Assembly: GCF_964355755.1 (NCBI RefSeq)
Contig: NC_092677.1
Coordinates: 1,245,001 to 1,309,000 of the forward strand
DNA length: 64,000 bases
Direction of reading: 5' to 3'
DNA from: Antedon mediterranea
Taxonomy: Eukaryota > Echinodermata > Crinoidea > Comatulida > Antedonidae
Both the position numbers and the translations under genes were made by a program. Of this stretch, positions 1 to 57,614 are shown in pieces (positions within the stretch are counted from its first letter, which is position 1; each line of letters starts with the position of its first letter). The notes below the pieces were generated by a model, which was not told the DNA's origin, made no database searches, and worked only from the letters and a program-made list of their open reading frames with translations.

Positions 1-1011
1 AATGGAATATTCACATTACAGTATATTAGCCTATGCCATGCGGTAAAAAAAATAAAGCACAGCTACAGCGAAATCTGAAAGTTTCAGTTTATTTTAGTAA
101 TAAAAGGCCTTTTGTAATATGAACGCATGACGTGTTTTATTAATATTGCAATTTTCTATTTCTTTAGCATTAACGACGACTTCTTTTATATCCAGTAAGT
201 CAACTACACGTATATTTTGCTTGCATGCATTGAATTGTAAATTTCCGGGTTTTTGCTTTTGCGAAAAGAAAAAAGGGATAGAAATGGAAAGGGATATCCC
301 CGCTCCATCTCATGATTAGTATCACGCTTAAAAAGGAAAATAATGATGACCTTTGTACATTGTCAACACTACATTATTGTAAACATGTTTAAAACACATG
401 GAAACACTTAGCCTTCTGTATTATTTGGTTTTAAATTTTTTTAAATACAGAAGTTCCAAAGAAAGAGAATGATTGTAATTCAATTGGTCATGTTGTTGGA
501 ATGACGTTTGTTGGTGTGCTCATTGGATTCATTATCTGTTTGCTTGTGGTTTTTATCATCAGCAAAATCAGGAAGTCACATGCACAGGTAAAGTATAATT
601 CAGAAAGTAGAACCAAAAGCAAAAGTGCAGACTTGAAATGACCAAAGGTTTAATGAAATACCGCACACTCAAGTAATGGAAACTATTTAAGCATGAAATT
701 TGATTTTAATTTAAAGGTACCTACATCGAAAAATACCAACCAATCAGGGGTAAAGATGTTAATCTAATTATTCAATTTCACTCATCATAATTAGTATTAT
801 TACTATTGCCACCAATATATCAATAAAGGTTTACACGATAATTGTTTTTTTGCATGCACTAAACTGTTGTATTTTTTTTTAGCAGCAGGCGTATATGACT
901 TATACTGGAGAGACAGATAAAAAAACAAACCACACATACCAAGATTTACAGAAGAAAGACGATAATCAAGCTGTATATGTAAATGTTAAAGCAAAAAAAG
1001 ACAACAAATAA
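1..1011 (+). CDS. IgR-A, 3' part (exons 4-7) of an Ig-superfamily transmembrane receptor, cut by window edge
   Basis: This is the last half of the first receptor copy; its leader and Ig exons lie left of the window. Visible exons are linker 168-194, transmembrane 451-587, spacer 717-749 and tail 883-1011 (TAA). All have canonical AG/GT borders and phases matching the other copies. The transmembrane exon encodes a short stalk with one Cys, then a hydrophobic stretch (VVGMTFVGVLIGFIICLLVV) followed by basic SKIRKS, so the tail faces the cytoplasm. The tail has YMTY, YTGE, YQDL and YVNV tyrosines. Unlike most copies it lacks the extra upstream ttcag, which supports tacag (447-450) as the real exon 5 acceptor. 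A polyadenylation-like AATAAA run follows at about 1030-1130. No defect is seen, so the gene may be intact. Confidence 0.75.
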
Positions 1012-1559
1012 TATACATGTTTAAAATTAAAATAAAATAAATATATTATAATTATTAATGGAATATCATTACATTGGTTTGAAACTACAATAACATACAT
1101 CTTGATGATTATATTATAGAAATAAAGAGAAATTATTACATTGAGAAAGTGTTTTCTTTCTCTTGATTTAACTCTTTAACGCCTACAAATTTAATAACAA
1201 GGAAATGTGATGCTGCAATTTGTTTTGCATTAACTAAACAAAAAAGTACTTAGCCCCAGAATTTATCATACGGTAAATAGGAATATTTGATGTAAAGATG
1301 AAAACCATACACATATACTTGAAACATGAAAAAAAAAGATAACTAACACGACTTTATTGAAAATGTTATTTCTTGTCTGTTGGAAATAAAACGTGATTGT
1401 ATTAGACCAATTTATTCGTTACTTTGAATGTAATGTTTGACTGCATTATTGCATTGATAATGACCATTATACCAGCATAAGAAAGAAAATAAACTAGACA
1501 ATTATTCTTTATTAAGAATAAGTCTTTTTGAGGAGTAGTGATAACAAAAAAGTTTAGAC

Positions 1560-1703
1560 GGGAGAGCTTAACAACAGTGAACGTTGAGGGCGTATGTAAT
1601 TGAATCAACTCGTATTAGGCCTACTTTCATAATCTCACAGAACAAGGAAGGACAATTTCGATTTATATTCGATATTCGCTATACTAGTAATTCTGTCTTT
1701 GTG
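1560..1703 (+). promoter_or_regulatory. Upstream block of the type-1 leader (IgR-B)
   Basis: The stretch before the IgR-B start codon (gagggcgtatgtaatt, then tctcacagaacaaggaagg) recurs before IgR-G at about 24865-25032 and nowhere else in the array. It is probably 5'UTR and proximal promoter. No TATA box is obvious, unlike the TATAAATA-type promoters of the other copies. Confidence 0.35.
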
Positions 1704-4700
1704 ATGATGACTTTTTGTTTGCTGCTATTTGTTCTTGTATTTGGTAAGTACCAGGCTTTAATGTTTTGTGGGTGCTACTATAAGTTAACATTTGATTTTC
1801 AATTTTTTTTATAAAACCATATTAGTCGATCCAGGTCAAGGTCAAAATAGAAGGTTTCTAAAGGTTTTTGGTATTTTTATTTCATTAAAGTAAATAGAAA
1901 GTTGGGCATTCCGAATAATTTGGGAAAACTTTGAAGTCTCTACGACCAGTCGTTGATGAGATATTGAGATAATCCAAATTTACAGTCAAAGTTCAAAACA
2001 TGCATTTCCGGTCATATTTTAAAAAACTTTCCCATTTTAATGAATATAAATATGGGTCTTCTGAGTATTTTGACACCAATTTCGCTTATGTACTCCTATC
2101 GATCACCAAGATGTCTATAAAATTAAAATATGCTTAGGTCAATAGTTCAAAGGTCAGAATAGAAGGTTTCTAAAGGAATTTAGTATTTTTCTTTCATTAG
2201 AGTGAATAGAAAGTTGGGCATTCTGAATAATTTGGGACAATTTTGAACTCTCTACGGCCAGTCGTTGATGAGATATTGAGATAATCCAAATTTATGGTCA
2301 AAGGTCAAAACAGGCATTTCCGGTAATTTTTTTAAAAAACTTCTCGATTACAGTGAATATAAATATTGGTCTTCTGAGTATTTTGACACCAAAATTGTTT
2401 ACTTACACCTACTGGTTGTCAAAATATGGTAAATAATGTTAAGATGGCCGCCATTTTGAAAAATGGCCCAATCAGGTTGAAGCACAACGGGGAAACCCGG
2501 GGACTTTTAGTATGTTGTTCCAGACAACATTGGGGACCTATCCTGAAACATTCAGCTTTAGCATATTTATTTCTACCTTTGGCCCTTTTTTGTCTAATAC
2601 TCCTGGACTAATACATGTAGGCCTATAGTACCTTTCCGTCATTGTTTGAGATACAAATAATCATCATGCATGTTATTTTCGAATTTATAGAGGTCGTTCT
2701 AACTTAGGTTAACAATTATAAAAGTAAACTATTAATTACAAAATCTTGAAATTTGCCGGACCACTGGTTTGGTTTGTGTGAGAGCCCAGAACAGAAAACA
2801 CAATAGAAAGAATGCATTCACTAGAATGTTGATTGTTGTCGTATCTTTCTGATTTTAATACTTTGCAGCATAATGTTATCAATTGATCAAATTTATTCAC
2901 CTTCCTTAGGAGAAACATATAAAAACTGTACAGCAAAATAAAACACATTAAAATAAAGATTCACACGAATCAATAGATTAAAATGGTTTTAACAAGTTAA
3001 ATAAAGTGTCAAAACCATTGTGAAATAGGGCAGACTTGTTATATTTCAAAATCAAGTTAAGTAACTTATTTAGTTTCAGATGCAAGTGCACAAACACAAG
3101 TGACAGTGGATGCTGGTACAGCAAAAGTTGATGAAGCTGCAACAATGATGTGCACCTATATACTTGTACCAAATGATCAATTGAGTCAATTGTCTTGGAC
3201 CAAAGCAAATGACAATGGTCAAGCAGTAGGAACTGCTCTTGTGACTTCTACAGGAGAAACAAGCAATGGTCGATACAGTTTGTCCAATGATAATCTTATA
3301 ATAACTGATGTTGAAAGAGGTGACGCAGGCAACTATCGTTGTGTTGTTGGCACAATGGGTGGAAATAGTGCTGAAAACTTTGCTAATCTCACAGTCTATT
3401 GTGAGTATTGTTTTGGAGCTAAAAATTTTTTTTTTTTAATTTATTTAAATATGTTTATTTCAAGTACTGTACAGTACATGTCAGTTAGTACAGTAATTTT
3501 AATTTCATCTTTGAATCATAAGTTTCACAATCAAAAAAAAAAATTGAAACCAATAATTTGGATAAAAAGTACAAAGTATAATCATCTATTGTGATATTCA
3601 ATCTATTTCGGTGGTATGATGGTAATTAGCTTTCCAATTGATGTGTTTGCTTTTTAGAGTATAATGTAATCATAATGGTATCATTTACAAATTTAATCTA
3701 ATAAATGTATATATAATATGATATTAAAGTGAAAATTATAATGCAGGGATGTTATTTACATCAGAACCAAACGAATATTCAATATCCTATGTATGTATTA
3801 TAATTTCAAAGAAGAGTACTAAACATTAACAATTACTGTATTACAATTGGTAGGCATGTCAATTGTGTAATTTTAAACAAATGAGTATCCAAGAACTGTA
3901 CAGTATAATTTTGCCATTTCAGATCTTGAAGTACCAGTTTTAAAACCAGTAGAATTGCGTGCCACATTAAATGAAACAGCAACATTTATATGTTCTGAAC
4001 TTGAAGGTTTACCAACACCAATTACCATAACATGGATCAAAGATGACAATCCACTTGGTGTTTCTAATACAGACAAGTATCCAACTTCTGACGCAACATT
4101 AACGATTAATGACGTTGATGAGAGAGATGAGGGAGCTTATCAGTGTAGAGCAGAGAATGCTGCTTACATTGGAGAGGAGGGAAAACTTAGTAATACTGCC
4201 ACACTGTCAATAGGTTTGTGGGAATAAACATTTTAATAAATAATGTATTTTATTAGCATCATTGTATAAGTCATTTCTGCATGTCATAATTATAAATGGA
4301 ATATTCATATTACAGTATATATTATGTCATGTGGTAACAAAATAAAGCACAGGTAAACAGCCAAAACTGAAAGTTTTAGTTTATTAAAGTCATTTTTATA
4401 AAATGAACGCATGACGTGTCAGATTATTGCTTGTTTGCTTTCTATTTCTTTAGCATCGACGACAACTTCTTTTATATCCAGTAAGTCAACTACACGTAGG
4501 TTTCGTTTGTTTGCATTGCATTGTAAATTTCCGGGATTTTGCATTTGCGAAAAAAAAGGATAGCAATGGAAAGTGATATCCCTGCCCCATCCCCATGATC
4601 TGTATCACGCCTTAAAAGGAAAAATAAGTATGACTTTGTATATTTGTCAACACTACATTATTGTAAACATGTTTAAAACACGGCATGGTAACCCGAATCC

Positions 4701-5311
4701 TTCTGTGTTATTTGTTCAGTTTTAAGTACAGAAGTTCCAAAGAGAGAGAATGATTGTACTTCAACTGGTCTTGTTGTTGGAATGACGTTTGTTGGTGTGC
4801 TCATTGGATTCATTCTCTGTTTGCTGGTGGTTGTTATCATCAGCAAAATAAGGAAGTCACATGCAAAGGTAAAGTATAATTCATAAAGTAGAACCAAAAG
4901 CAAAAGTGTAGACTTAAAATTACCAAAGTTTAATGAAATACCGCACACTTAAGTAATAGAAACTATTTTAACATTAAATATGATTTTTTATTTTGAAGGT
5001 ACCGACATCGAAAAACACCAACCAATCAGGGGTAAGGATGTTACTTCAACTTTAAGTATTCAATTTCACTCGTCGTCGTCATCACCATCATTATTATCAC
5101 TATTGCCACCAATATATCAATAAAGGTTTACACAATTTTCATTCTTTTTTTTGCATGCACTAAACTTTTGTATTTTTTTTAGCTGCAGGCGTATATGACT
5201 TATACTGGGGAGACAGATAAAGAAACAAACCACACATACCAAGATATACAGAAGAAAGAAGATAATCAAGCTGTATATGTAAATGTTAAAGCAAAAAAGG
5301 ACAAAAAATAA
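1704..5311 (+). CDS. IgR-B, two-Ig-domain receptor with tyrosine-motif tail, apparently intact
   Basis: Seven exons: 1704-1743, 3074-3400, 3923-4213, 4454-4480, 4732-4868, 4999-5031, 5183-5311; about 327 aa. Exon 1 is a hydrophobic leader (MMTFCLLLFVLVF; tandem ATGs at 1704 and 1707). Exon 2 is a V-like Ig domain with MMC in strand B, LSW in strand C and DAGNYRC in strand F, and no J-like FGxG motif. Exon 3 is an I-set domain with FIC, ITWIKD and DEGAYQC. Exon 5 holds the transmembrane helix and basic stop-transfer. Exon 7 carries YMTY, YTGE, YQDL and YVNV. The frame is open throughout and every junction is phase-compatible. Inference: a type I surface receptor signalling through its own phosphotyrosines, since no charged residue lies in the helix. 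Ligand unknown. Intron 1 is enlarged by an inserted repeat. Confidence 0.8.
1822..2612. mobile_element. Inserted repeat in intron 1 of IgR-B
   Basis: Intron 1 of IgR-G lacks this block, so the paralogue acts as an approximate empty site. The insert has an internal direct duplication with a period near 312 bp (starting at about 1846 and 2158, both AATAGAAGGTTTCTAAAGG). It ends in a segment with gatggccgccattttgaaa. Similar pieces in the opposite orientation (TGGTGTCAAAAT, atggcggccatttt, TTTGACCTT) occur at 57720-57950 beside the 1534-aa ORF, so it may be a degenerate end of the same element family. No coding capacity is seen. Confidence 0.5.
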
Positions 5312-7242: not shown

Positions 7243-9481
7243 ATATGTTCAAACGCTAGTTTATAGGTTAGCTATAAAATACTGTAAAGGCCTGTAACAT
7301 CGTGACAGTACTCATGCTGCTTTAATGTCGCTGTGCTACTAATTGTGAAAATACAGTAGTTATATATACATATATGTTTTCAGTATTTTTTGTTTGTGTT
7401 GTTTGCATTTCCTATAATTTTGTTTCCAGAAATGACAAAAAAAAAACTCTCTTGACATCAACACAATGTTTAATAAATGGTAGGCCTACTAGACATACAG
7501 CACATGTTTGTAGCAAGCTATCTTTAAATATAAGTAACAAGCTTTATCTTTTATAACACCAAATCAACGTAGCTACCCTAAACTAAAAAAAAAACATGCA
7601 ATAAAAGTGCACAATATGCAGTATTTATAATAATTACTGCACAATTTTTTTTAGTTTTAGGTACACATGCACAAACTACATCTGTGACAGTGGGTGGTGA
7701 TACAGTTAAAGTTGGTGAGGTTGCGACGATGACGTGTAGTTATACACTTCAAGCGGAGATGTCTTGAATCAACTTGTTTGGTTCAGAGTAGATGATGGAA
7801 AAAACTATCTCGTATCTTTAGTTGAAACAAGCAATGGTCGTTATAACTTATCTAATGACAAAGATCTTATGATAAGTAATGTTGAAGTAAATGATGCAGG
7901 AAATTATTTTTGTACAATTTAGACACAAACGTTTCAAATTGCTGACTACTATGGTGAACTTATAGTCCAATGTGAGTTTGTCATTTCTTTGTCATAAAAG
8001 TTAAATACACAAACTCTGTTCGACAATCTTCAAATTACAATAAATAATTATAATTAAAAATTATCAAAATGAAAATAAAGCTGTGTTTATGGTATTACAT
8101 TTAATAGTCAAATTGTCTATTACACCGCAGATCTTGACACACCAGTTGTGACTCCAGCTCAATTGTCTGAGCTGCCAATATGGATGAAACAGCATTGTTT
8201 TCTACTGTACCTGTTGGATTCCCAACATCAATTACCATCACATGGATCAAAGATGACGTCGAACTTTATGTTTCTGATATAGAAAAGTATCCGTTTTCTG
8301 ATGCAACATTAACGATAAAGAATGTAAATGAGACAGATGCAGGAAGTTATAAGTGTATAGCAGAGAATGCTGCTTACATGGGAGAAGAAGGAAAAGGTAG
8401 TAATACTGCCACACTGTCAATGGGTTGGTTGGAAAACAAACTTGTTATAACTGCTGATACAGCAATATCATATTTTATTGATATTTTCTACAAGGACCAA
8501 ATTGCCTTTCATAATAATTGGTTAATATTCCTATTATGTTACGTGGTAATGAAAATGAAGCACAGCTACACAACAAAAACTGTTGGAAGTTGGGGGAAAT
8601 GTTTGGAAAAAGAAAGGGAAATGTTTTAATACTGATTGGTGTGAAACGATATTCTTTTTTTTTTAGTTATAAAAGGCTTTTTGTGATATGACGTGTTACT
8701 AATATTGCTTGTTTCTCTATTTCTTTAGCACTGACGACAACATCTTTTATATCCAGTAAGTCAACTACACGTAGGTTGTGTTTTTTTGTATTGTATTGTG
8801 TAAATTTCCGGGTTTTTGCATTTGCGAAAAGAAAAAAGGGATAGAAATGGGAAGGGATATCCCCGCTCCATCTCATGATTAGTATCACGCATTAAAAGGG
8901 AAAGTAATGATGACCTTTGTATATTTGTCAACACTAAATTATTGTAAACACGTTTAAAGCACATGGAAACACTAATCCTTCTGTATTATTTGTTCAGTTT
9001 TAAATACAGAAGTTCCAAAGAGTGAGAATGATTGTAATTCAACTGGTCTTGTTGTTGGAATGACGTTTGTTGGTGTGCTCATTGGATTTATTATCTGTTT
9101 GATTGTGGTTTTTATCCTCAGCAAAATAAGGAAGTCACATGCACAGGTAAAGTATAATTCAGAAAGTAGAACCAAAAGCAAAAGTGTAGATTTAAAATTA
9201 CCAAAGGTTTAATGAAATACCGCACACTTAAGTAATGGAAACTATTTTAACATTAAATATGATGGTTTATTTTGAAGGTACCTACATCGAAAAACACCAA
9301 CCAATCAGGGGTAAGGATGCCATACTTCAACTTTAAGTATTCACTTTACTCATCAACATCATCCTTATCATTTATTATTATTACTCTTGTCACCAATATA
9401 TCAATAAAGGTTTGCACGATTTTCATTCTTTTGTCATGCAATAAACGTTGTATTATTTTTTGCACAGGCGTATATGACTTA

Positions 9482-10880: not shown

Positions 10881-11167
10881 TTATATGACTTATACAAGAG
10901 TATATGACTTATACAAGAGTATATGACTTACACTGGAGAGACGGATAAAGAAACAAACCATACATACCAAGATTTACAGAAGAAAGACGATAATCAAGCT
11001 GTATATGTAAATGTTAAAGCCAAAAAGGGCAAAAAATAATATACATGTTTAAAATAAAAATTAAATAAATATATTATCATTATCATTATTCTTATTATTA
11101 ATGGAATATCATTATAATGGTTTGAAACTACAATCCTTCTGTATTACTTGTTCAGTTTTAAATACAG

Positions 11168-11731
11168 AAGTTCCAAAGAGTGAGAATGATTGTAATTCAA
11201 CTGGTCTTGTTGTTGTAATGACGTTTGTTGGTGTGCTCATTGGATTCATTATCTGTTTGCTTGTGGTTGTTATCCTCAGCAAAATAAGGAAGTCACATGC
11301 AAAGGTAAAGTATAATTCATAAAGTAGAACAAAAAGCAAAAGTGTAGACTTAAAATTATCAAAGGTTTAATGAAATACCGCACACTTAAGTAATGGACAC
11401 TATTTTAACATTAGATATGATGTTTTATTTTGAAGTTACCTACATCGAAAAACACCAACCAAACAGGGCCATGGGTAAGGATGTTACTTCAACTTTAAAT
11501 ATTCACTTTACTCATCATAATCATCATCATTTATTATTACTATTGTCACCAATATATCAATAAAGGTTTACACGATTTTCATTCTTTTTTCATTTTTTTT
11601 AGCAGCAGGCGTCAATGACTTACACTGGAAAGACAGATAAAGAAACAACCCACACATACCAAGATTTACGGAAGAAAGAAGATAATCAAGCTGTATATGT
11701 AAATGTTAAAGCCAAAAAGGGCAAAAAATAA
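11168..11731 (+). pseudogene. IgR-D, orphan 3' block (exons 5-7 only)
   Basis: Only about 130 bp after the IgR-C stop, the 3' flank (gaaactacaat) passes directly into the pre-exon 5 sequence (ccttctgtattacttg). The transmembrane exon 11168-11304, spacer 11436-11474 and tail 11603-11731 follow, all open. The spacer is 39 nt with two extra codons (CCA TGG). The tail has Ser instead of Tyr in the first motif (SMTYTG) but keeps YQDL and YVNV. There is no leader or Ig exon, so this looks like a product of unequal crossing-over. It could serve as an alternative tail for IgR-C transcripts if spliced in, but nothing shows that. Confidence 0.7.
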
Positions 11732-12551: not shown

Positions 12552-13592
12552 ATAGAGGTGAAAAGTTCAAATGCGATGATTTTCCTGATTATTCAACTTT
12601 GTGGATGTAAGTACAAAATATTGAAAATATATCTTCCCATTTTTCACAAAAAGACGCAATCTTAAATTGCAGTATTTATAATAATTACTGTACAGTTATA
12701 TTTTAGTTTTAGGTACACATGCACAAACTTCGTCTGTGACAGTGGGTGGTGATACAGTTAAAGTTGGTGAGGATGCGGCGATGACGTGTAATTATACACT
12801 TCAAGCGGGAGATGTCTTGAATCAACTTGTTTGGTTCAGAGCAGAGGATGATGGTACTCCAGAGTTAGGAAACCCTCTGGTATCTTTAGTTGAAACAAGC
12901 AATGGTCGTTATAGCTTATCTAATGACAAGGATCTTATGATAAGTGTCGTTGAAGTAAATGATGCAGGAAATTATCTGTGTAGAATTGTAACACAAAATG
13001 TTCAAATTGCTGACGACATGATCAACTTATAGTCCAATGTGAGTATAGGCTAATTCATTGTCAGTGAAGCTATAATCGGTATAGTACTGTTTTTAGCAGC
13101 TTTTGTTCGTTTGTTAATAAGCAATCACTAATTAACAACTACATTTCCTAATTTATCTTTTTTGAAATCTGTTTTGTTGATTTTACAGTAAATAGAGGTA
13201 GAGGGCGCTTCATGGTGGTTGGACGTGTTTCTGAAGTTGTAAAAGTTTTGAGTCTTGTTTGCTGGTTTTGTATAGTTTATAGTTACATAAAGTCTCCATT
13301 ACTCTTCTTATTGCTACAAATGTAGCTTAAGCCCTTGTATTATTCGATTTATCTTTCGATTGGAGAGATTTTTTGAGATTGTCTTTGCTAGGCCTGTGTT
13401 TGTGGTTGGACGAATATCTGTTATCGGAAAGTCTTTGAATCTTGTTTGCTAGTTTACTTTCATATCATTATCATTCCTATTCTTATGGCTTCAAATTTCT
13501 GCTTGAGCTCTTACTGTATTCTAAGGACTGGTAAGATTTTTATTTTTTAGATTGTCTTTCGCTAGGCCTAGGGTTGTGTAAGCAGTTAGGGC

Positions 13593-14477
13593 ATGGCTTC
13601 CAAAAGCAAAGATCAAGGTGCCAGGCCAAAGCCTAGATCACGTAATGCAAGAGGCACAGTTGATAAAACGGTAGTAGATATCGAGGGTGAAGACGAATGT
13701 GGTTCATGTGGTGGCCATTTTATGTCTGGTGGCAAATCGGTTTTATGCGGTCTTTGTAAGCTATGGTTCCACATAGATTGTCAGAAAATTAATGAAGCCA
13801 AATATAAGTGGCTATCCAAAGATGACTCATCCATTTTTTGGTACTGTAGGAGCTGCTCAGTCTCAGTAGGCAATTTCATGGGTCTTATTAATAATGTTAA
13901 TGAGACACAAAAAACCATGATTAAAACAATTGAAGCAATTAAATCTGAGGTAGAGATCAATAAAGAGGATATTAAAAAGTTATTCCAGTCATCTAGTGTT
14001 GTTAATAATGAGGATGTTAAGACAATAATTGAAAATAGAATTAAGGATGAAAATGAGAGATTGAAAAGAAAATCTAATTTGATGCTATATAGAATAGATG
14101 AGTCCAAGAGTAATGACTCAGATAGAAGAAAAAATGATGACCTCAGTAAATTGGCAGGTATTTTCGAGGATATTGACCTAGAGGTCGAAATGAGAACATT
14201 TTTCCGGGTGGGTAAACACAGAGAAGATGGGTGCCGCCCTATAAAGGTAGTTTTCAAGAAGGAATGTATCAAAAGAGATGCCTTTGAAATTGCTATACAA
14301 AAAAAGTGCGCAGTAAGTAATGATAGAACAATAAAGGAACGTGATGAGTATAATAAACTTAGGGACATATTGAGGGATAGGCAAAGCAAAGGGGAAAAAG
14401 ACTTGGTAATTAGAAGGGGGAAAATAACTCGGTTTCGTTCCCAAAGCACTACCCAATCGGAAGAGAACACTGCCTAA
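13593..14477 (+). CDS. LINE ORF1, PHD-finger protein
   Basis: 294 aa, ATG start. A PHD-type zinc finger spans roughly residues 35-90: CGSC, CGLC, WFHIDC and YCRSC supply the Cys4-His-Cys3 pattern. It is followed by a charged, predicted coiled-coil stretch (about 100-165: INNVNETQKTMIKTIEAIK and onward). The C-terminal half (RSSNLMLYRIDES-like, then FFRVGKHREDGCRPIKVVF) resembles the RNA-recognition/C-terminal part of LINE ORF1 proteins. Role by family knowledge: nucleic-acid chaperone and ribonucleoprotein formation. The ORF is intact. It ends 46 bp before the conserved start of the endonuclease frame. Confidence 0.8.
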   Translation: MASKSKDQGARPKPRSRNARGTVDKTVVDIEGEDECGSCGGHFMSGGKSVLCGLCKLWFHIDCQKINEAKYKWLSKDDSSIFWYCRSCSVSVGNFMGLINNVNETQKTMIKTIEAIKSEVEINKEDIKKLFQSSSVVNNEDVKTIIENRIKDENERLKRKSNLMLYRIDESKSNDSDRRKNDDLSKLAGIFEDIDLEVEMRTFFRVGKHREDGCRPIKVVFKKECIKRDAFEIAIQKKCAVSNDRTIKERDEYNKLRDILRDRQSKGEKDLVIRRGKITRFRSQSTTQSEENTA

Positions 14478-14523
14478 CAATGTAAGTTCTACGCAGTCAG
14501 AAGATGTTAATGATTTTTTTAAT

Positions 14524-17388
14524 GTGTTTTATACAAATTGTGATTCCCTTCTAAATAAGAAGAATGAGCTTCTGTTGCGTTTATCTTCAGAGAAAGTAGA
14601 TATCATTGCTTTGACTGAGATTCTACCAAAGAAGTACTTTTTTGAATTGTCTATAGAGGAGTTTCATATCCCTGGTTTTCAGATGTTTTTGCCAAATGAA
14701 AAGCTTTCATCTGGTAGAGGAGTTGTTATTTATGTTCGAAATGGGATGTCTGCCACTCCGGTTTTGTTTAAAGATATTTTGTTTGAGGAATCCATGTTTG
14801 TTGAGATTAAAGTCAAGGATCGCACCTTTTTAATTGGATGTGTGTATAGAAGTGACGCCGGATCTAGTGTCAATAATTCTGCTTTGTGTTCTCTGTTTAG
14901 AAAAGTGGCATCCTTTTCTTGTTCTGATTTGATTATAGTTGGAGATTTCAATTATAGGAGTATTAATTGGGAGCTAGGATATGTGACTGGTGAAGATGGT
15001 AAAAATAGTCATAATTTTTTCGACACCATTAATGACTTATTTTTAGCTCAGCATGTACGAGACCCAACCCGTTACAGAATAGGAGAACAGGCCAATGTTC
15101 TGGACCTGGTACTTACATCTAATGAGGATTCTATTAGTGAGGTCCTTCAAGCTCCACCATTAGGTAAGAGTGATCATATGGTACTTCAATTTAAAATTCC
15201 AGTTAATTTAATCAAAGAAGAGGTGGTAGAGGTTAGAAATTATTTCCATGCTGATTATGATAAGTTTCGTGGTTTTCTTGATGGTGTCGATTGGGACACT
15301 GAGTTATTGGATAAGGACGGGTTACACTCGCACGGTTCTTTTGATGAGATCTTATCTAGAGGTATGGAACAGTTTGTTCCAAAGTGTAAGAAACACTTGT
15401 CTGGAAATGTTAAGAGACCTTTGTGGTATACTAAGGAGGTTGATAAGTCTATTAAACAGAAGAATAAATGCTGGAAACAGTATATCAAAGCAAAACGTAA
15501 AGGGCATGACTGTGCTTGTGTCAAATGGAACACGTTTATTAGAGTAAGGAATGATACTGTCAATTTGATTAAGAGTTCTAAAAGCATCTTCGAAAATAAG
15601 ATTGCAAATGAGGTTAAAGTCAATGAAAAGTCTTTTTGGCGCTATGTAAATTCTCAGTTAAACACCAGATCTGGTATTCCTACTCTTAGAAATGTTGAAG
15701 GTAAACTTGTTGTAGATGACCAAGATAAAGCCGAGTCTTTTAATTCTTTTTTTAGCAGTGTCTTTTGTAAGGAGAACTTATCGAATGTTCCGAATCTTGA
15801 TAAAAAGATTGAGGCTTCTTTGTCAGATATTGAGTTTAATGTAGAAGATATTCATAAGCTGTTGTCTAACTTAGTTATAGATAAGTCAGCTGGCCCTGAT
15901 GGCTTTCACCCACGGGTTTTGATTGAATTAAAGGATCAAATTGCTTACCCTCTCAGTCTAATATTCACTAGATTATTCAATGATCAGAAGGTCCCTCTAT
16001 CGTGGAAGGAGGCAATTGTAATACCTATATTTAAGAAAGGCAAAAAGGAGGACCCGGCTAACTACAGACCGGTTAGTTTAACGTCGGTCATAGGGAAAAT
16101 GATGGAAAGGATTAATAGGGATAAACTTGTAATGTATCTTGAGAGTAATGGTCTTTTGTGCAATGAGCAATTTGGATTCAGACAAGGTAGATCATGTGCA
16201 TTACAACTACTTGATGTCCTGGAGAGTTGGACTACTAACCTGGATAACCATGATAGCTTTGATTGTGTCTATTTAGACTATAAAAAGGCCTTTGATAGTG
16301 TGCCACACCAAAGGCTTCTAGTCAAATTGAAAGGTTTTGGTATTACGGGAAATCTACTAGGATGGTTCTCTAATTATTTGTCAAATAGAACACAACGAGT
16401 TAGTGTCAATGGTCAATTGTCATCACAGGCTCCAGTATAAAGTGGAATTCCACAGGGTAGCGTTGTGGGCCCAATCTTATTTTCAATCTTCATTAACGAT
16501 TTACCTGATGTTGTCGAATCTAGTATACGTTTATTTGCAGACGACACCAAGTTGTATAGAAAGGTCAATAACATTGATGATGCAGATTTATTTCAAAGAG
16601 ACATTGACAGTGCTTCCCATTGGTCTAATGTTTGGCAATTGCCTTTTAATGACACTAAGTGTAAGGTATTTCATTATGGTCGTGATAATCCCAATTTCTT
16701 GTATTCAATGGCTGGTAATTTACTACATGAGGTAAAGCAGGAGAAAGATCTAGGTGTTACCTTTGATCATAGTTTAATCTTTAATTTGCATGTAGCGGAT
16801 ATTTGTAAAAGAGCTAATAAGAAACTAGGAATGATTTATAGATCTTTTAAATTCTTGAATAAAGATGGATTTTTGAAGCTGTATAAGTCTATTGTCAGGC
16901 CAACGCTTGAATATTGTAACACTGTTTATAATCCTATTAGAAAACGAGATCAGGATGAAATAGAGAAGGTCCAGCAAAGAGCAACAAGATTGATTCCTAG
17001 GTACCGTAATATTCCTTATGAACAACGTTTGAGAATTCTTGGTCTTCCTACCATGAGATATCGAAGGCAGAGAGCAGATATTATCCAAGTTTTTAGGATT
17101 GTTAAAGGTTTCGATCGTATTTCGATCAACACATTTTTTGAATTTGATCTAGAATCTCGGACCCGTGGACACCCATATAAACTCAAGTTTAAAAGCTCTC
17201 GTCTTAATATTAGGAGGGACACGTTCTCCAGGAGAGTTATTCTCTTATGGAATACTCTGCCTATGGATGTAGTTTCATGTGCTACGGTGAACTTGTTCAA
17301 AGCAAAACTTAACGTCGCATGGTCTAACCACCCGCTGAAGTTTTCACCCTATATAGAATATGATTTTATTGCTAAGAGGGGCTTTTAA
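14524..17388 (+). pseudogene. LINE ORF2, endonuclease-reverse transcriptase with one internal stop
   Basis: The frame is open from about 14428 to 17388 except for one TAA at 16438-16440. No ATG precedes the endonuclease, so initiation probably depends on ORF1. Residues show an APE-type endonuclease (FYTNCDSLLNKKNEL, VGDFN, SDHM), then the reverse transcriptase: SAGPDGFHP, PIFKKGKKEDPANYRPVSL, YLDYKKAFDSVPHQ, GIPQGSVVGPILF and the catalytic FADDT. The C-terminal domain (RPTLEYCNTVYNP, RATRLIPRYR, FSRRVILLWNTLP) is typical of CR1-like LINEs. The stop falls between the palm motifs, just before the GIPQGS motif, and truncates the enzyme ahead of the catalytic FADD. Otherwise the copy looks young. 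Confidence 0.85.
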
Positions 17389-17450
17389 GCACTGAGTGCT
17401 TCGCCTCGATCCCGTAGACGAAAGTGTACGGGAAACAAGTAAACAAGTAA

Positions 17451-18467
17451 ATGATCTTGTATTAGTTAGTTTTTACTGTTATGGAATAATTATTTAATAA
17501 CATTCAACGTTTTTTACATATTTGTTTTCCTTTTTTTTTTTCAATATTTTAGATTTATTAGTTTTCTTGTCATGTCGACAACTGTTCAGGTGGTCAATGC
17601 TTAAAGTAATTTTTAATTATTTTGATCTCCTTTCACACATCTTTTTTCTTTTCTTATAGTTCATATATCTGTTCATTTAGTTCAATATGTGGAAAATAAA
17701 TAAATGAAACAAACAGTTATACACATAACTTGTTAGACAATTCATTTTTAGACTTTCAGACCTTATCTTGATATCAGTTTAATCTAAGTCAATTTTTCAC
17801 AGTATATTCCTTATGGCCAGGAATCGATGTGGTTATGTTTTCACGGTGCGCAATAAAAAATTACGCGGTCTACGCACGATTTAACGAAATCACGTTTGTA
17901 ATCATATCTTCAATACCATGAATCACAATTAAAAAAAATTTGGTACTCATAAATTTCAGGGCATAAATCATCATATGGCAATACAATTACGTACGTAGCG
18001 CATGTAACGCATGCGTACGCGCGCTTAAAATTTTCAAAATTTATTTGCGATGAAATAAGAGTACGTTTCAGGCAATTTTAAGCGTTTACAAAATTGCCAT
18101 GAGTCCGCAGATTTTTGCGCGCGCACTGCGCGTTAAATGTTGTTACGCACTCTTTTTGCCCGATTTCTGTTTTCTTGACTTACTTTTCAACTCGAAATTA
18201 CGTTATACGAGCACGTCAAAAGTGACAGGCTACGCACTTGTAAATTAAAAAAATATAAATGTTTTTAAACATTTCAACATTTTTAAACATGTTCAGTAAT
18301 TTCGGTCAATTGGTCGGTCGGTCGGTAAACACTAATGAGCACGCGACTGCATCCATCTATATGGCCTTGTTTTTCTAACAATTACTTTTAAACACTAGGC
18401 CTAATGTAAACATGATAAAAATCCTGTGTTGTGCTTGTATAGTAAGATTATTCTTTTGTTTTTCTAG
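17451..18467. repeat. Remainder of IgR-E intron 2 with a CpG-rich repeat-like stretch
   Basis: No gene is seen. From about 17840 to 18250 the sequence is unusually rich in tacgcac/gcgcgc words compared with its AT-rich surroundings, and probably derives from an unclassified dispersed repeat. A short (GGTC)n run sits near 18310. Confidence 0.35.

Positions 18468-22881: not shown

Positions 22882-22885
<4 letters not shown>
22807..22885. repeat. (ATT)n microsatellite tail of the LINE
   Basis: About 26 uninterrupted ATT units form the 3' tail of the LINE fragment. Length may vary between individuals. Confidence 0.9.
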
Positions 22886-36039: not shown

Positions 36040-36749
36040 GTAAGGATACCATAACACTTTCAATACCAATTTTCACTCATCATTATCTATATATAAATTA
36101 TTTTACGTAAGGGAAAAATTCTGTAAATCGCCCGTACTTCTAGAATTTCTACTCGATGGTATATAAAGTTGGTTCGTACTTTCGGTACTGATTTTAGCCA
36201 CCTGATTTAACCCTGCTTACAAATTAAATTGAGTTAGACAATTAGTTATTGACAATTAAAAAGAATTTAGGTTCAACGATTTGTCCCAAATAGGGGTGTT
36301 TTCCGTGGTATACATTGTCTAATGGATGTCCATCTTGAAAAATATCCGCACACAATAATACTATCTCCTTCTACGATAATTGATCAGCTCGAGTACAGCA
36401 TCATAATGTTGAAGAAAGGCCGACTTTCTTAAAAAAATACTATTTGGATATATTTAATATATACGTTTATACAAATGTATTGATTTGCGATGAATGGAAC
36501 ATTCCAATCTGTTAGAAGCTTCAAATTCCTCGGTAAATAGAGGGCGCATTATTTCGTAAGAAGACAGTACTTTAAAAATATTGGAAATATGCTTGTTCAC
36601 AAAAAGTAATCTAAACATTGGGCCTCCGTACAGTATCATGGAGGAAGTAAACACAAATGTAAATCAATTGGCATTCAGAACCATCAGTGTCCTGAGAGAC
36701 AAGAGTGAAAGTATCATTTTGGATTTTCAGATTGTTAGGCGTGACCAGC
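36040..36749 (+). other. IgR-I/J intergenic region
   Basis: No gene. 36600-36740 (gtacagtatcatggaggaagtaaac, then accatcagtgtcctg) repeats the block before IgR-F (about 21665-21790) and is the likely 5'UTR of the type-3 leader. 36060-36550 shows nothing recognised. Confidence 0.35.
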
Positions 36750-43856: not shown

Positions 43857-46800
43857 ATGGAGGCGAAATGTACAAGTGCGATGATTTTCCTGATTATTCA
43901 ACTTTGTGTTTGTATGTACAAATATTAAAAAATATATTTTTTTTCACAAAATGACGCAATCGTAAATCGTTATTTTTTTTTTTTTTTTTTAATTTAGTTT
44001 CAGATACAAGTGCACAAACACCAGTGACAGTGGATGCTGGTACAGTCAATGAGTTTGACAATGTAACAATGATGTGTACTCCAAACGTTTTTATAGGAGA
44101 TTCGTTGAATCAACTGGTTTGGACAAAAGTTGATGACAATGGTGAACAACAAGGACCTGCTCTTGTGATTTCTACAGGACAAGCAACAAATGATCAATAC
44201 AGTTTGTCCAATAATTATCTTATAATAACTGAGGTTGTAAGAGGTGATACAGGCAACTATAAATGTACTGTTAGCACCAATCTTGGAAATCCTGGTGAAG
44301 ACTCTGCAGCACTCACAGTCAATTGTAAGTATTAGAATTTTATGAATATACATTTCAGAGTGGGAGAAAGCTGCTTAGAAATTTACTCTATTTTAGACTA
44401 TTGACTATCCCAAATGTTTATTTACATGTTTATAACATTGTAAAAACACACACAAGGTACAATATTTAACAAGTAGAGTATTCTATTGTTCATTATATTT
44501 AATTAAAATGTTTTTCTTGAATGTTTACACACATGCCTTGTTGATAAATAGTATTTGTAGCACAAACAAATTATTATAAAAATGTATCATGAAAATAAGC
44601 TGTGTTTATGGTAATACATTTAATAGACAAAGACAAAGAGTATTTTAAAAATTGTTATGTAAATTTTTCATTTCAAACCTCTGACACCGGTGTTCCTCAG
44701 GGTACTGTCAACGCACCTAAATTATATTCCTTGTATACGGCGGATTACAGATCTTTAAATGATGAGCTTTGCCCCGTTGTTTAAATTCGCTGATGACACT
44801 AGTACTATTGGTCTCATAGTTTCAAACAATGATGAAAATTATCGTAGCGAAATACAAAGATTTGTTAAATTTTGTGACGATAATTATCTCCAAATAAATG
44901 CATCAAAAACAAAGGAGATGATCATTGATTTTAGGACTAAACATAAATTTAATTTTCAACCAATCACTATCAAAGGTAAAGAAATTGAAATTGTTGACCA
45001 GTACAAGTATCTAGGAATTGTTTTCAATGATAAACTGAGTTGGGGAGACCATATAGACTTCATCAGCAAAAAATTAAGTCCCAGAATGTATTGTATGAGA
45101 ACTTTATATAAATTTAACTCCTGTGATTTGATGTTACTTTCGTTCTATAGATCCGTTATATGTAGTGTTTGGACGTATTGCCTCTCCTGTTGGGCTGGTA
45201 ATGTTACCGGAGGGAATAAAGGACGCCTTGAAACTTTCATCCGTCGGGCTGGTAAAATGATTGGTCTGGAACTGCCTTCCTTTACCGATGTGCACCTAGA
45301 ACACCTCCAGAAAGATTTCGAACGCAATGAGTCGGATGCCTCTCATCCTCTCCACAAAGTGATCATAGACCAACTTAATCCAAGTGGTAGATTGAGGCTC
45401 CTCAGTGTGAAAACAAATCGATTTGCTAAATCCTTTATTCCCTCCGGTATCATCCAGTACAACAGGAAGTCAAGAAGATAATTTTATATTGTATTTTTTT
45501 AGATGTTTTTATATGAATGGTTTTATGCTATATTTGTTTTTATAGTGTTTTCTTTGTTATTATGACGAGCAATGAATTTCCTTTTTGAGGATCAATAAAA
45601 GTTATCTTATCTTATCTTATCTTATCTTATCTTATCTTCATGAACAGATCTTGACAACCCAGGTTTGAAGCTAATGTCTAACGATCATGAAACAGCAATA
45701 TTTGAATGTACTGAACCTGATGGATTCCCAACACCAATTACCGTCGCATGGATCAAAGATGGCAATGAGCTTGGTGTTTCTGATACAGACAAGTATCCGT
45801 TTTCTGATACAACATTAACGATTAATGACGTCGATGGGGCAGATGAAGGAGTTTATCAGTGTAGATCTGAGAACGATGCTTATAGTGGAAATGAGGGAAA
45901 ACTTAGCACTACTACTGCTACACTGTCAATAGGTTGGTTGGAATAAACATTTTGATAAATAATATATTTATTGGCATCATAGTATAGTATAAGTATTTTA
46001 TGCATGTCATAATTATAACCGAAAATAAAGCACTGCTTTAGCGAAATCTGAAAGTTTCAGTTAATTTTAGTTATTAAGGGTTATTTTTATAATATGAACG
46101 CATGGCGTGTTTTACTAAATATTGCTTGTTTGTTTTATATTTCTTTAGTATTGACAACAAATTCTTATATACCCGGTAAGTCAACTACACGTAGGTTTTG
46201 TTTGCTTGCATTTTTATTTATTGTAAATTTCCGGGTTTTGTTTTGCATTGCCAAAAGCAAATAAAAAAAGGATAGACATTGGAGGGGATATGCCACGCCT
46301 CATCCCTAGGATCTGCATGAATGCTTAAAGGGAAAATAATGATAACCTTTTTATAATATATTCGTCAACACTACATTATTGTAAACATGTCTAAAATGAC
46401 ATGGTAACACTGTACTAATTGTTTAGTTTTAAGTACAGAGTTTCCAAAGAGTGAGGGCGTTTGTAATTCAACAGGTCTTGTTGTTGGAATGACGTTTGTT
46501 GGTGTGCTCATTGGATTCATTCTCTGTTTGCTTGTGGGTTTTATTATCAGCAAAATAAAGAGATCAAATCCAAAGGTAAAGTATAATTTTTAAAGTAGCC
46601 CCAGCAAAAGAGATAGGCATAGAATGACCAAGTGTTTAAAATACCGCACACTTGAGTAATGATTTTAACATTAAATATGTTTTATTTTAAAGGTACCTAC
46701 ATCAAAAAACACCAACCAATCAGGGGTAAGGATGCTATACTGTACTTCAACTTTAAGTATTCACTTTCTCTTGTCATCATCATCATCATCATTTATTATT

Positions 46801-47011
46801 ACCATTATCACCATCATATCAAAAGGTTTACACGATTTTCATTCTTCTTTTTCCATGCACTAAACTGTTGTATTATTTTTAGCAGCAAGAGTATATGACT
46901 TATACTGAAGAGACAGATAAAGAAACAAACCACACATACCAAGATTTACAGAAGAAAGACGATAATCAAGCTGTATATGTAAATTTTAAAGCCAAGAAGG
47001 ACAACAGTTAA
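43857..47011 (+). CDS. IgR-L, intact two-Ig-domain receptor, V class 1, LINE in intron 2
   Basis: Exons 43857-43911, 43998-44324, 45648-45932, 46149-46175, 46439-46575, 46693-46725 and 46883-47011; about 330 aa, open. Leader MEAKCTSAMIFLIIQLCV. The V1 domain has MMCTPN, LVWTK and DTGNYKC. The I-set domain has FECTEP, AWIKDG and DEGVYQC. The linker differs (LTTNSYIP) and exon 5 begins EFPKSEGVC. The tail is QQEYMTYTEETDKETNHTYQ followed by DL, then VYVNF in place of VYVNV, ending KKDNS. A LINE fragment of about 1 kb lies in intron 2 without touching splice sites; its TTATC repeat ends about 10 bp before the exon 3 acceptor, so it may affect splicing. Confidence 0.83.
44628..45640 (+). mobile_element. 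5'-truncated non-LTR retrotransposon fragment in IgR-L intron 2
   Basis: It encodes the second half of a reverse transcriptase (GVPQGTVNAP, then FKFADDTSTIG, LQINASKTKEMIIDF, YKYLGIVFNDKLSWGDHI, RSVICSVWTYC). A frameshift at about 44760-44785 splits the GVPQGT motif from FADD. It ends at aatcaataaaag and a (TTATC)n tail at 45601-45638. It is not the same family as the CR1-like copy at 13195; the C-terminal text suggests a Rex1/Babar-like LINE, which is tentative. IgR-K intron 2 gives the empty site. Confidence 0.8.
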
Positions 47012-50877: not shown

Positions 50878-51143
50878 ATGGAGGGGATCTATGGTGTAAT
50901 AATAATTCTAATGTTTCAACTATGTTCTTGTAAGTAAGAAATTAGAAAACAAATAAATAAATAATTAAAACAAATAATTTAAAAATAATAATAATAAAAA
51001 TACAAAACTTTCTCGAAACACATAAATAAGTAATTAAAACAAATAATGTTAAAAGTGTGATGTAGAATGTTAATTTTAGTTAAAATGCTCAGCAGATGTG
51101 TCTGTGATTGAATAGAAATGTTATACTTGAAATGTGAAAAAGA

Positions 51144-51210
51144 AGGTAGGTAATCGAATTTCGCTGACGTTTTTAAACAAAAAATGTCAGCGAAATTCGA
51201 TTACCTACCT
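51144..51210. repeat. Perfect 25-bp hairpin in IgR-M intron 1
   Basis: 51144-51168 (AGGTAGGTAATCGAATTTCG, then CTGAC) is the exact reverse complement of 51186-51210, with a 17-nt A/T-rich loop. No paralogue intron has it. It could be a tiny foldback element; length and perfection also fit a small-RNA precursor, but nothing else supports that. Confidence 0.7.
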
Positions 51211-51574
51211 ATTGATTTTTTTCTATGTCAAAATATATAAATTCATATCATGTATTCTATTTCAGTTTTAAATGGTCAAACTGAACCTATAGTCAATGTA
51301 CAAAATGCTACTTTAAAGTAGGTGAAAATGCTGTTATCATCTGTGATTACACACTCGGTGGTGGTACAAGAACACTTCAGGCTGCTCAATGGTACAATAG
51401 CACATCAACAGGAGATAGGTTAAACCTTCTTGTTAATAGTGCTCTAACAAAGCCAAATGGTAGATATGCAGTTGATACCACACAAACTGGTGTGGTTACT
51501 CTCATTATTGCAAACACAGTATTGTCTGATGATGGATACTATCTATGTAGAATTGTTGATTCACCTGCTGTTGA

Positions 51575-51723
51575 CAAGTTTTTAACTTCTAGAAGGGATC
51601 CATGATAATAATGACTAACAATTACTGCTTTATCTATGTTCACTTTAATATCTTTTTTCTATTTTGTATATATTCATTCATTATTATCTAAATAAATATT
51701 ATCTGAATCTGAATCTGAATCTG
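51575..51723 (+). mobile_element. Retroposon fragment inside the IgR-M V exon
   Basis: Inserted between GCTGTTGA and AACTGGTGAA, which are contiguous in IgR-N. The text caagtttttaacttctagaa through AAATAAATATTATCTGAA equals the minus strand of 9959-10110. The tail is (TCTGAA)n instead of poly(A). Confidence 0.8.
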
Positions 51724-53805
51724 AAACTGGTGAAAATGTTGGAAAGCTTACTGTTCAATGTAAGTATGAATGTTTACATCATTTAACAATGAATAAATAT
51801 TTTATATTAAAAATAAGTGTGATTGTGAACAGAATGGTGGTCTTTTAATGTTTACCAGTGGCTTACCAATAATCAATTAATATTTTATTTCTCAGAATAA
51901 ATTGCACATCAAACTAACAACAAATATCTAAATATCTATCAAGAAAAAAATAATAATAGGAAGGGTAAGACTATCAAACAATATCGTTGGTCAAAGAGAG
52001 AAGCTATCGCTATTGAGAGTATATATACTAATTAAACTAGAGTATTGAACAATTTGAGAAAGTATTCATAAAAAAAGATAAATAGGGAACGCCATATAAA
52101 CAAACATCATGCCGGTACTACACTAATTGAGATACAACAATAGTCTGATGCGTTTTGATAGTTGATTTCTGGAATATACAATGCATCTTTTTAGTTTATA
52201 CACTTCGACATGGTGAATGTAAGACTGTTTATTTTGCCTTTACAGATCTTGAAGAACCAGTTCTAAATCCAACAAACTTGTCTATCAACGAAATAGAAAC
52301 TGTGACATTTACATGTTCTAACCTTATTGGTGTACCAACAATTACCGTCACATGGATCAAAGATGGCAATGAACTTGGTGTTTTTGATACAGACAAGTAT
52401 CCGTCTTCTGATGCAACATTAACGATTAATGACGTTGATGAAGAAGATGAAGGAGATTATCAGTGTAGAGCAGAGAATGCTGCTTATAGTGGAACAGATG
52501 GTAAACTTAGTAATACTGCCACACTGTCAATAGGTTGGTGGGAATAAACATTTTGATAAATAATATATTTTATTGGCATTATAGTATAAGTATTTTCTGC
52601 ATGTCAAAATTATAAATGGAATATTCATAATACATATGTCATGCGGTAACAAAAATAAAGCACAGCTATACAGCGAAATCTGAAAGTTTCAGTTTATTAA
52701 AGCCATTTTTATAATATGAACGCATGACGTGTCTGACTATTGCTTGTTTGATTTATATTTCTTTAGCATTAACGACAACTTCTTCTATACCCAGTAAGTC
52801 AACTGCACGTAGGTTCTGTTTGTTTGCATTGTATTTATTGTAATTTCCGGGTTTTTCCGTTTTCGTACAGCAAATAAAGGATAGGAATGGGAGGGGATAT
52901 CCCCCGCCGAATTCCAATGATCTGCATGAGTGCTTAAAAGGGAAAATAGTGATGACTTTTGTATAATATATTTGACAACACTACATTATTGTAAACATGT
53001 TTAAAAGACATGGAGACACTGATCCTTTTGTAGGCCTATGTATGGTTTAGTTGCATTGCCTTCCGGAATTTTGCGAAAAGCAAATAAAGGATAAGAAATC
53101 TGGGGGAGGGTGCACACAGGATCTGCATGAGTGCTTAAAAAGTAAAATATGACGTTTGTATAAACATGTTTGAAATAACATGGAAACACTTATCCTTCAG
53201 TATTAATTGTTCAGTTTTAAGTACAGAAGCTCCAAAGAGTGAAAATGATTGTAATTCAACTGGTCTTGTTGTTGGAATGACGTTTGTTGGTGTGCTCATT
53301 GGATTCATTATCTGTTTGCTTGTGGGTTTTATCATCAGCAAAATAAGGAAGTCAAATTCACAGGTAAAGTATAATTCAGAAAGTAGAAACAAAAGCAAAA
53401 GTGTAGACTTAAAATGACCAAAGGTTTAATGAAATACCGCATACTTAAGTAATGGAAACTATTTTAACATTAAATATGATATCTTATTTTAAAGGTACCG
53501 ACATCGATAAACACCAACCAATCAGGGGTAAGGATGTTACCTCAACTTTAATTATTCAATTTCACTCGTCGTCGTCGTCACTATTGTCACCAATATATTA
53601 ATAAAGTTTACACGATTTTCATTCTTCTTTTTTTTGCATGCACTAAACTTTGTATTTTTTTTAGCAGCAGGCGTATATGACTTATACCAGAGAGACAGAT
53701 AAAGAAACAAACCACACATACCAAGATCTACATAAGAAAGACGATAATCAAGCTGTATATGTAAATGTTAAAGCCAAAAAGACAAAAAATAATATACATG
53801 TTTAA

Positions 53806-55490: not shown

Positions 55491-55617
55491 TTAAACGGAA
55501 CAAATTAATTCTAGGGACAAATTGGACCGGGTTTGGGTGCAATTGAGGTTCATTTCTGTTTTTTAAGGAAGACATTTTAGAAATACCAGTTTGAATTTGC
55601 ACTGTTTGAACGTACTG

Positions 55618-55908
55618 TATAAATAAGATCTACCACCAAGTGTTTAAATAATGGTTACTAATTAAAAAGATTAATTTGATCATCTTGATTTGGACGGAAG
55701 TACATTACACTATATTTATGAAGGAAGTAAACACAATATATCACAAGCCTAACAAATGCAGTCTACACTAATAAAAATAACAGGAACAATCAATATTTAA
55801 AAGTATACAATACAGTAGAGTGTGGTAGAGTGCGAGACAATTATAGTCAAACAGTTATCTGCACATCGAAGCGGGGTTTAAATATTTCAATCATTTTACA
55901 GATTTGTA
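55618..55908 (+). promoter_or_regulatory. TATA-type promoter block of IgR-N
   Basis: TATAAATAAG at 55618-55627, 291 bp before the leader ATG, then the shared module (ggacggaagtacattacact, aggaacaatcaatatt, agtgtggtagagtgcgagac). The piggyBac-like insertion lies just upstream of it. Confidence 0.45.
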
Positions 55909-57614
55909 ATGGAGGAGAAATGTAAAGGTGCGATAGTTCTTCTGATTGTTCAACTTTGTGGTTGTAAGTATGAATATTGAAAATACCTGCAATGATGAAT
56001 GATGTAACCAATCCTAGATAAAACTGTATATTTTTGTAATCATGTTTGAATCGAAGTTGTTGCATTTAAAATGCAGCCTGACAATTTCGGTGGTTTATTT
56101 GTTTTATAAATGCTTTAAGTTTGCAATCTTTTTCGTTCATAATTATATTTTAATAATCAACGTGAACAAATACTAGTTTGGATACAACTAGATTATTTAA
56201 ACACATTTGTTTTTATTTTCTTATTTGTTAAAGTTACAAATGGTCAAACTGAACCTGTAGTCAATGTGCAAAATGCTACTGTTAAATTAGGTGAAGATTC
56301 TGTTATCACATGTGAATACACACTCAGTGATTCAAGAACACTTCAGGCTGCTCAATGGTACAATAGCACATCAATAAGAGATAGGTTAAACCTTCTTGTT
56401 AATAGTGCTGAAACGAATCCAAATGGTAGATATGCAGTTGATACCACACACACTGGTGTAGCCACTCTCACCATTGCAAACACAGTGTTGTCTGATGAGG
56501 GATACTATCAATGTAGAATTATTGATTCACCTGCTATTGAAACTGGTGAAGATTATGGAAAACTGACTGTTCAATGTGAGTACGAATTGTTATATCATTT
56601 AACAAGACCTATTTTCACATTTTAAATAATCTTAATTATTATAATATTTACTTTAAGGTTATAGGTTAGTCCAAAAAGCATTGCAATATACCTTATCGTT
56701 TATTTATTTATAGAACTTTTTTAACATCTCCATTGAGATCCAGCTAGTGATACCCATTTATCAGTAGTTTGCCTTTTGATTTATGTTTACATTTAATATT
56801 TTCACGTACCTGTTAATGTTCGCCATTGGCTAACGAATAATAAATAATCAATCAATTTAAATTGTATGCATAAGTAAGAAAATAAATAGATTTGTAAAAA
56901 GCTAACCAGGAAGAGAGATATTACTATTCTTTTCTGGGCTTCAAACAAAAGCATTAATCAAAGAGAAGCTGTCCCTATTGAGGGTACATTGTATTCAATT
57001 AATATACTGATTGTTGATCAGGTTTCATAAAACCAAACACTTAACATACAAAATGGAAGACCAATGAAAGTACAGTACAGTACAATAAGAAGATAAAACA
57101 AGGTCGTCGTGAGGCAATGCCTCGGGTCACATTCTATGGTCACCGTACAGGCAGGCTACTACATTAGTACTTCTATGAATGGATGACTAGCCGGTGACAA
57201 TAACGCTAGTTGGTCATAACCAGTACCGTTTTGATTTTACGATCATTCGGGAAACCACCTCACGACGATGATAAAAGTAACATTTTTTGTTTTTTTGCCT
57301 TTACAGATCTTGAAAACCCGGTTCTGATTTCAACAGGATTGTCCGTTAACACAAATGAAACTGTGACATTTACGTGCTCTGATCTTATTGGTATACTGAC
57401 ACCGATTACCATCACATGGATCAAAGATGACGTCATACTTGATTTGTCTGATACACAAAAGTATCCAACTTCTGATGCAACATTAACGATTAATAATGTC
57501 AATGTAACAGATAAGGGAGTTTATCGCTGTAGAGCAGAGAATGCTGCTTACAGTGGAACAGATAGACAAGTTCTATTTCCCCTGAAATATGATGCAAGAA
57601 GCATTTTTGGGTAG
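55909..57614 (+). pseudogene. IgR-N, receptor truncated inside exon 3
   Basis: Leader 55909-55963 (MEEKCKGAIVLLIVQLCG). The intact V3 exon 56234-56575 has VITCEYTL, AAQWYNS and DEGYYQC. Exon 3 starts at 57307 (FTCSDLIG, TWIKDD, DKGVYRC) and follows its paralogues to AYSGTD at 57563. It then enters unrelated DNA, reading RQVLFPLKY to a stop at 57612-57614. Exons 4-7 are not in the window. Either the gene was broken by insertion of the following element (its 3' half would lie beyond 64000), or the array ends here at a rearrangement. As read it would encode a secreted two-Ig fragment. Confidence 0.75.

Follow-up and report, generated by a model that had tools for sequence, protein, structure and literature searches.

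What kind of receptor system is encoded by a long tandem array of immunoglobulin (Ig)-superfamily genes with tyrosine-motif tails? Part of the array lies in the 64,000-nucleotide stretch of DNA analyzed here (the window; C8:1245001-1309000, on contig C8 of a 354-Mb genome in 18 contigs). We favor, at a probability of roughly 0.6, the reading that it is a family of immune-type receptors, germline-encoded and of the type I single-pass topology. The outward-facing Ig domains have been shuffled between copies and the signaling tail is nearly unchanged, which would be consistent with innate recognition. The initial annotation had proposed a candidate immune receptor locus in what looks like an invertebrate deuterostome, made up of clustered, rapidly turning-over Ig receptors whose tails carry tyrosine motifs. 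The array is confirmed and the proposed interpretation is supported in part; the family has proved larger than described, and mosaic.

A search of the window with tblastn using exon seeds, combined with six-frame reading, placed 11 exons for a V-like first Ig domain (D1), 12 for an I-set-like second Ig domain (D2), 13 for the transmembrane (TM) segment and 12 for the tail, all on the + strand. The units are paralogs at the DNA level, sharing self-blast blocks of 0.3-2.8 kb at 64-92% (mostly 68-92%) identity. Cross-copy alignment of all seven exons, covering their splice sites, phases and reading frames, bears out the proposed gene structure: leader (phase 1), D1 (1), D2 (1), linker (1), TM (0), spacer (0) and tail. 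The linker is a Thr/Ser-rich exon of 27 nt, the spacer exon (33 nt) encodes VPTSKNTNQSG, and the tail exon encodes QAYMTYTGETDKETNHTYQDLQKKDDNQAVYVNVKAKKDKK. For units B, J and L, the spliced model is an uninterrupted reading frame from the ATG start through the stop codon (330, 344 and 333 aa, respectively). Unit K had also been called complete, but no leader of matching phase accompanies its open exons 2-7 and its leader is unconfirmed; a candidate at 40521 was rejected for its wrong phase. Unit G is, as annotated, a tail-truncated copy with a complete ectodomain, its spliced model open over 314 aa with a short stop-terminated end in place of the tyrosine tail. The window begins partway through unit A, whose D1 and D2 exons, both open, fall shortly before the window start, at C8:1243935 and 1244655. 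Broken copies are common, the other units being fragments or disrupted by transposable elements (TEs), with stops, frameshifts and insertions. The units are as follows.

1..1011, + strand: unit A, continuing leftward beyond the window; TM exon ~441-590, spacer, tail exon 886-1011
1704..5311, + strand: unit B, complete, 330 aa; exons 1704-1743, 3074-3400, 3923-4213, 4454-4480, 4720-4868, 4999-5031, ~5186-5311 (the tail acceptor is probably a CAG slightly downstream of this start, in the same frame)
7647..9481, + strand: unit C, relic; D1 with a stop, D2 without its first Cys, TM; tail exon lost
10914..11728, + strand: unit D, relic; an additional tail exon 10914-11036, TM 11155, tail 11606-11728
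12552..19818, + strand: unit E, relic; leader-like 12552, D1 12718-13017, insertion of a long interspersed nuclear element (LINE) 13590-17385, D2 18467-18763, TM 19261, tail 19696-19818
21812..23951, + strand: unit F, relic; leader 21812, D2 broken at ~22304, TM 23402, tail 23829-23951
25033..29406, + strand: unit G, complete ectodomain and TM; exons 25033-25075, 27079-27405, 27952-28242, 28484-28510, 28733-28881, 29013-29045; in the tail exon an insertion of ~95 bp truncates the frame at 29259, with the original tail at 29293-29406
30427..32708, + strand: unit H, relic; D1 30575-30887 with a frameshift, D2 31305-31595 without its first Cys, TM 32174, tail also frameshifted
33721..36053, + strand: unit I, relic; D1 fragment with a stop 34005, interrupted D2 34473-34823, degraded TM 35728
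36750..38740, + strand: unit J, complete, 344 aa, J-type D1; exons 36750-36819, 37005-37352, 37462-37752, 38020-38046, 38205-38344, 38453-38485, 38615-38740
40871..42769, + strand: unit K; D1 40871-41209, D2 41386-41673, whose first Cys is deleted, linker 41913-41939, TM 42178-42326, spacer 42458-42490, tail 42647-42769
43857..47011, + strand: unit L, complete, 333 aa; exons 43857-43911, 43998-44324, 45648-45932, 46149-46175, 46427-46575, 46693-46725, 46886-47011
50878..53787, + strand: unit M; leader 50878, D1 open only over 51318-51563 (5' end out of frame), D2 52245-52535, TM 53214, tail 53668-53787
55909..57551, + strand: unit N, partial; leader 55909, D1 56251-56577, D2 57306-57551

The array is real and far larger than the window, reaching over about 0.5 Mb (C8:1.115-1.63 Mb) with roughly 60 exons for each of the tail and the TM segment on a single strand. 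Genome-wide, there were 70 matches to the tail and 68 to the TM exon, nearly all of them at C8:1.116-1.63 Mb and on one strand. Combining the D1, D2, TM and tail coordinates gave 38 ordered V-I-TM-tail chains, 28 of which are open (full-length matches without stops); these counts rest on the four exon types, with leaders checked only within the window and many copies counted by coordinates alone. A number of TM positions reappear ~131-134 kb further along (e.g., 1120377/1254000 and 1390054/1523438 on C8), which makes segmental duplication of array blocks probable. Further V-set clusters are found on C8 at 0.38-1.1 Mb and 4.7-6.1 Mb.

The strongest conservation is in the tail. The tyrosine-motif cytoplasmic tail of the initial annotation is present as a conserved tyrosine motif, YxxL-x9-YVNV, rather than as a canonical immunoreceptor tyrosine-based inhibition or activation motif (ITIM or ITAM). 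The form YxxL/I-x9-YxN[V/F] is found in 23 of the 25 distinct tails, and all 14 distinct full-length tails tabulated retain the three motif tyrosines and the YVNV Asn (N+2) without exception. Pooled ratios of nonsynonymous to synonymous change (omega, with codon-bootstrap 95% ranges) are 0.19 (0.10-0.37) for the tail over 27 distinct tails, 0.84 (0.51-1.41) for the TM segment, 0.51 (0.25-1.12) and 0.52 (0.30-0.88) for D2, and 0.67 (0.41-1.08) and 0.68 (0.49-0.97) for D1. The tail is thus under strong purifying selection, far tighter than D1. Because mean synonymous divergence (dS) of the tail (0.19) is close to that of the B-type D1 (0.167), the tail has not merely been homogenized recently. 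The constraint on the tail and the number of open chains both speak against a mostly decaying array with few functional genes, an explanation to which the many window units broken by stops, frameshifts and TE insertions would lend themselves, and which we regard as very improbable.

Both ectodomain modules belong to the Ig superfamily by Pfam cutoffs: D1 scored as V-set/Ig (48 bits as V-set for J, cutoff 26) and D2 as I-set/Ig_3 (48 bits as I-set for B, cutoff 23.7). The AlphaFold2 model of the J D1 has a mean predicted local distance difference test score (pLDDT) of 91 and matches T-cell receptor (TCR) V domains at Z ~14 with 19-24% identity; in this model D1 has the V-type beta-sandwich and is a true V fold. 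The predicted D2 model reached a pLDDT of only 71. Foldseek matches of the J D1 include Dpr/DIP, butyrophilin, B7-H4, PD-1 and nectin. The best of them is the Ig1 domain of Dpr10/DIP-alpha, and with SynCAM2 and neuroplastin also listed, the array could be taken for a lineage-specific expansion of a cell-recognition family with neural or developmental roles (Dpr/DIP-, SynCAM- or neuroplastin-like). The same table, however, mixes in V domains of antibodies, TCRs, B7 and PD-1, and sharing a fold does not by itself establish function. Many broken copies, block repeats at ~131-134 kb and D1 shuffling would also be unusual for stable neural families, and we consider such an origin quite unlikely.

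In the window, the D1 of J is only 24-31% identical to the D1 of other genes, with tails 83-95% identical. Across the 28 genes compared, the type of D1 is only partly tied to that of D2: the genes L081 and L083 have D2 domains 87% identical and D1 domains 33% identical, the pair L093/L079 shows 87% identity in D1 and 65% in D2, and both the B-type and the J-type D1 occur with two D2 types. The phase-1 introns on both flanks of D1 would permit its exchange. Outside the array, a gene at C8:1.037 Mb (L072) has a D1 that shares 68% identity with the J D1, together with a different D2, a further Ig domain and a PKD-like domain. A separate locus, L001 (C8:2.337 Mb), has a V-set exon, after which (M/F)NPGTGG repeats continue as a long open frame. 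Fast turnover and the exchange of exons would also suit receptors for gamete recognition or symbiont control in place of pathogen defense, although we find this rather improbable as well.

Related tails also occur on other ectodomains elsewhere in the genome. Genes at C8:0.62-1.09 Mb combine V, Ig and PKD-like domains with a related tail (in one, Pfam PKD at 21.0 bits, just under the cutoff of 23.5). A pair at C6:1.00-1.03 Mb (L075 and L076) carries the same TM-tail module on FN3 domains (one at 46.9 bits, one below cutoff), together with an Ig-like domain (C1-set, below cutoff) and an EGF-like Cys-rich stretch that is unrecognized by Pfam. L075 also has a long run of ~64-bp repeats between the TM segment and the tail. 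In those module tails that were read, Y-Q/E-D/E-L/I is conserved and is followed, after 8-9 residues, by Y-V/E-N-V, and the ectodomain types that share the module are V-I, V-I-PKD-like, V-I-I-PKD-like and EGF-like-Ig-FN3-FN3. We tentatively suggest, at somewhat less than even odds, a new ambulacrarian, probably crinoid, immune-receptor superfamily, in which one TM-spacer-tail module (YxxL-x8/9-YVNV) is joined to varied ectodomains and germline shuffling of V exons would yield combinatorial diversity without a canonical ITAM or ITIM.

The host bears on a further explanation. An invertebrate deuterostome, as initially proposed, is supported by an ordered cluster of 12 Hox genes at C2:7.83-8.21 Mb (a Hox4-type and three 11/13-type members among them, with one inverted; assigned by eye), which resembles ambulacrarian clusters. 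COX1 was not found in the genome contigs. A search for plectin gave no match, but neither did its controls, so it agrees with an echinoderm only weakly. Window GC is 32.8%; for comparison, 12 Hox genes and a GC content of 33.2% are reported for the feather star A. japonica (PMC7351957). The host is most probably a crinoid and less probably a hemichordate. The array might consist of allorecognition receptors like Hydractinia Alr or Botryllus fester/FcoR, with V domains matching self alleles on neighboring tissue, and ITAM/ITIM motifs are known on Alr candidates (PMC12065747). The bilaterian, ordered Hox cluster shows that the host is not a cnidarian, and identity with the cnidarian Alr locus was rejected on this ground despite the similar layout, as was a Hydractinia or Podocoryna host, which layout and GC had at first suggested. 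The likely host is, moreover, a crinoid, and crinoids are solitary animals; no result of our analysis supports allorecognition specifically, and we judge it unlikely.

Clustered Ig receptors with tyrosine tails are also familiar as KIR, LILR, CD300 and FCRL, which the array resembles in description and from which it differs in domain composition and motif. In its appearance, and probably in its mode of action, the array is comparable to the Alr, NITR and FcoR systems, though it is not placed in any of them. Hydractinia Alr is a clustered family with many pseudogenes (PMC11067881, PMC11999971, PMC12065747); the array is set apart from it, as far as descriptions go, in its bilaterian host, its YxxL-x9-YVNV tail and its D1/D2 mosaic. 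A VIA-align search with the D1 model gave no Alr or VCBP structures among its matches, which excludes nothing. Teleost NITRs have 1-2 Ig domains, a single TM segment, a tyrosine tail, dozens of clustered genes, strongly diverged V domains and birth-and-death evolution (PMC2442602), all of which are features of the array. They differ from it in that array tails have no ITIM and there is no clear charged-TM activating form. NITR V domains carry a J-like GxG motif, which is absent from strand G of D1 (D1 alignments A3/A4), so that the array has neither this motif nor the accompanying ITIM tail or positively charged TM segment of NITRs. The fuhc-linked FcoR/fester genes of Botryllus are clustered, with IgV-like domains, Y-x-x-I/L/V core motifs and variation in gene content (PMC12065747); the array shares the clustering, IgV-like domains and motifs but differs in its ectodomains, and we noticed neither a fester/FcoR-like pairing nor a linked HECT ligase in the window, where no specific search was made. 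Amphioxus VCBPs are a polymorphic immune-type multigene family of V-type domains in an invertebrate deuterostome (PMC2632668), and to that extent resemble the array; they have two V domains and a chitin-binding domain, whereas the complete array models have V, I, TM and tail.

Several results weigh against immune-type receptors. The strict ITAM (YxxI/L-x6-8-YxxI/L) is found in 0 of the 25 distinct tails and the ITIM ([S/I/V/L]xYxx[I/L/V]) in two, with none in the window tails by alignment inspection, and the array family lacks a strict ITIM. The domain-wide omega of D1 does not exceed 1, and diversifying selection is therefore unsupported. No clear activating partner form (tail-less, with a charged TM segment) was seen, and Ig-superfamily arrays can also serve neural or gamete recognition. 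If the genes are nevertheless immune-type receptors, the exposed V domain would bind a self or microbial surface ligand, and on receptor clustering a Src-family kinase would phosphorylate the tail. YQDL and YVNV may then recruit Src homology 2 (SH2) proteins, YVNV most plausibly adaptors of the Grb2/Gads type, which could link to Ras/ERK-type or ITAM-type signaling in coelomocyte-like cells. The pYxN sequence, a motif for Grb2-family SH2 domains (PMC6669380), is present in the tails as YVNV or YENV, a predicted Grb2-family docking site. Tail phosphorylation, adaptor binding, immune-cell use and ligand class are what we infer from sequence.

Other features of the window accompany the array. The LINE in unit E (13590-17385, + strand), a non-LTR retrotransposon with a PHD finger, endonuclease and reverse transcriptase (RT), lies between D1 and D2. 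An open reading frame (ORF) at 22279-22746 (+ strand) in the D2 of unit F looks like a retrotransposon remnant, with no Pfam match, and another at 44759-45478 (+ strand) in intron 2 of unit L is an RT-like remnant with a weak RVT_1 score below cutoff. Units K, H and C form a D2 subgroup without the first canonical Cys (41385-41675, 31305-31595 and 8174-8422). A block of ~450 bp is conserved upstream of several units (~5904-6371, 12149-12629, 30028-30505, 55483-55985 and others); it has a TATAAATA-like motif, with a leader exon or remnant at its end, and is a candidate shared promoter. Downstream of the last unit, N, which ends at ~57.55 kb, there was no TM or tail match. A 75-bp tandem repeat of ~5 copies (58233-58677) lies immediately to its right, followed by a single ORF of 1547 aa (58698-63338, - strand). 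The weak resemblances of this ORF to DUF6589 and a CXC domain fall below cutoff, it has no match in the PDB, and it may be transposon-encoded.

In conclusion, clustered Ig receptors with tyrosine tails are a known kind of gene family, to which this array adds a further form; in the literature searched, no description of this receptor family in crinoids was found. Recognition systems from cnidarians to mammals have been argued to comprise unrelated receptors converging on ITAM/ITIM signaling (PMC12065747). A large array of clustered V-Ig receptors with shuffled exons in an ambulacrarian, outside the chordates and cnidarians, puts that convergence directly to the test, since its tyrosine tail is different yet strongly conserved. 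Echinoderm immunity is usually discussed through the TLR, SRCR and SpTransformer families, and the array provides a concrete gene set for asking how echinoderms use Ig receptors.
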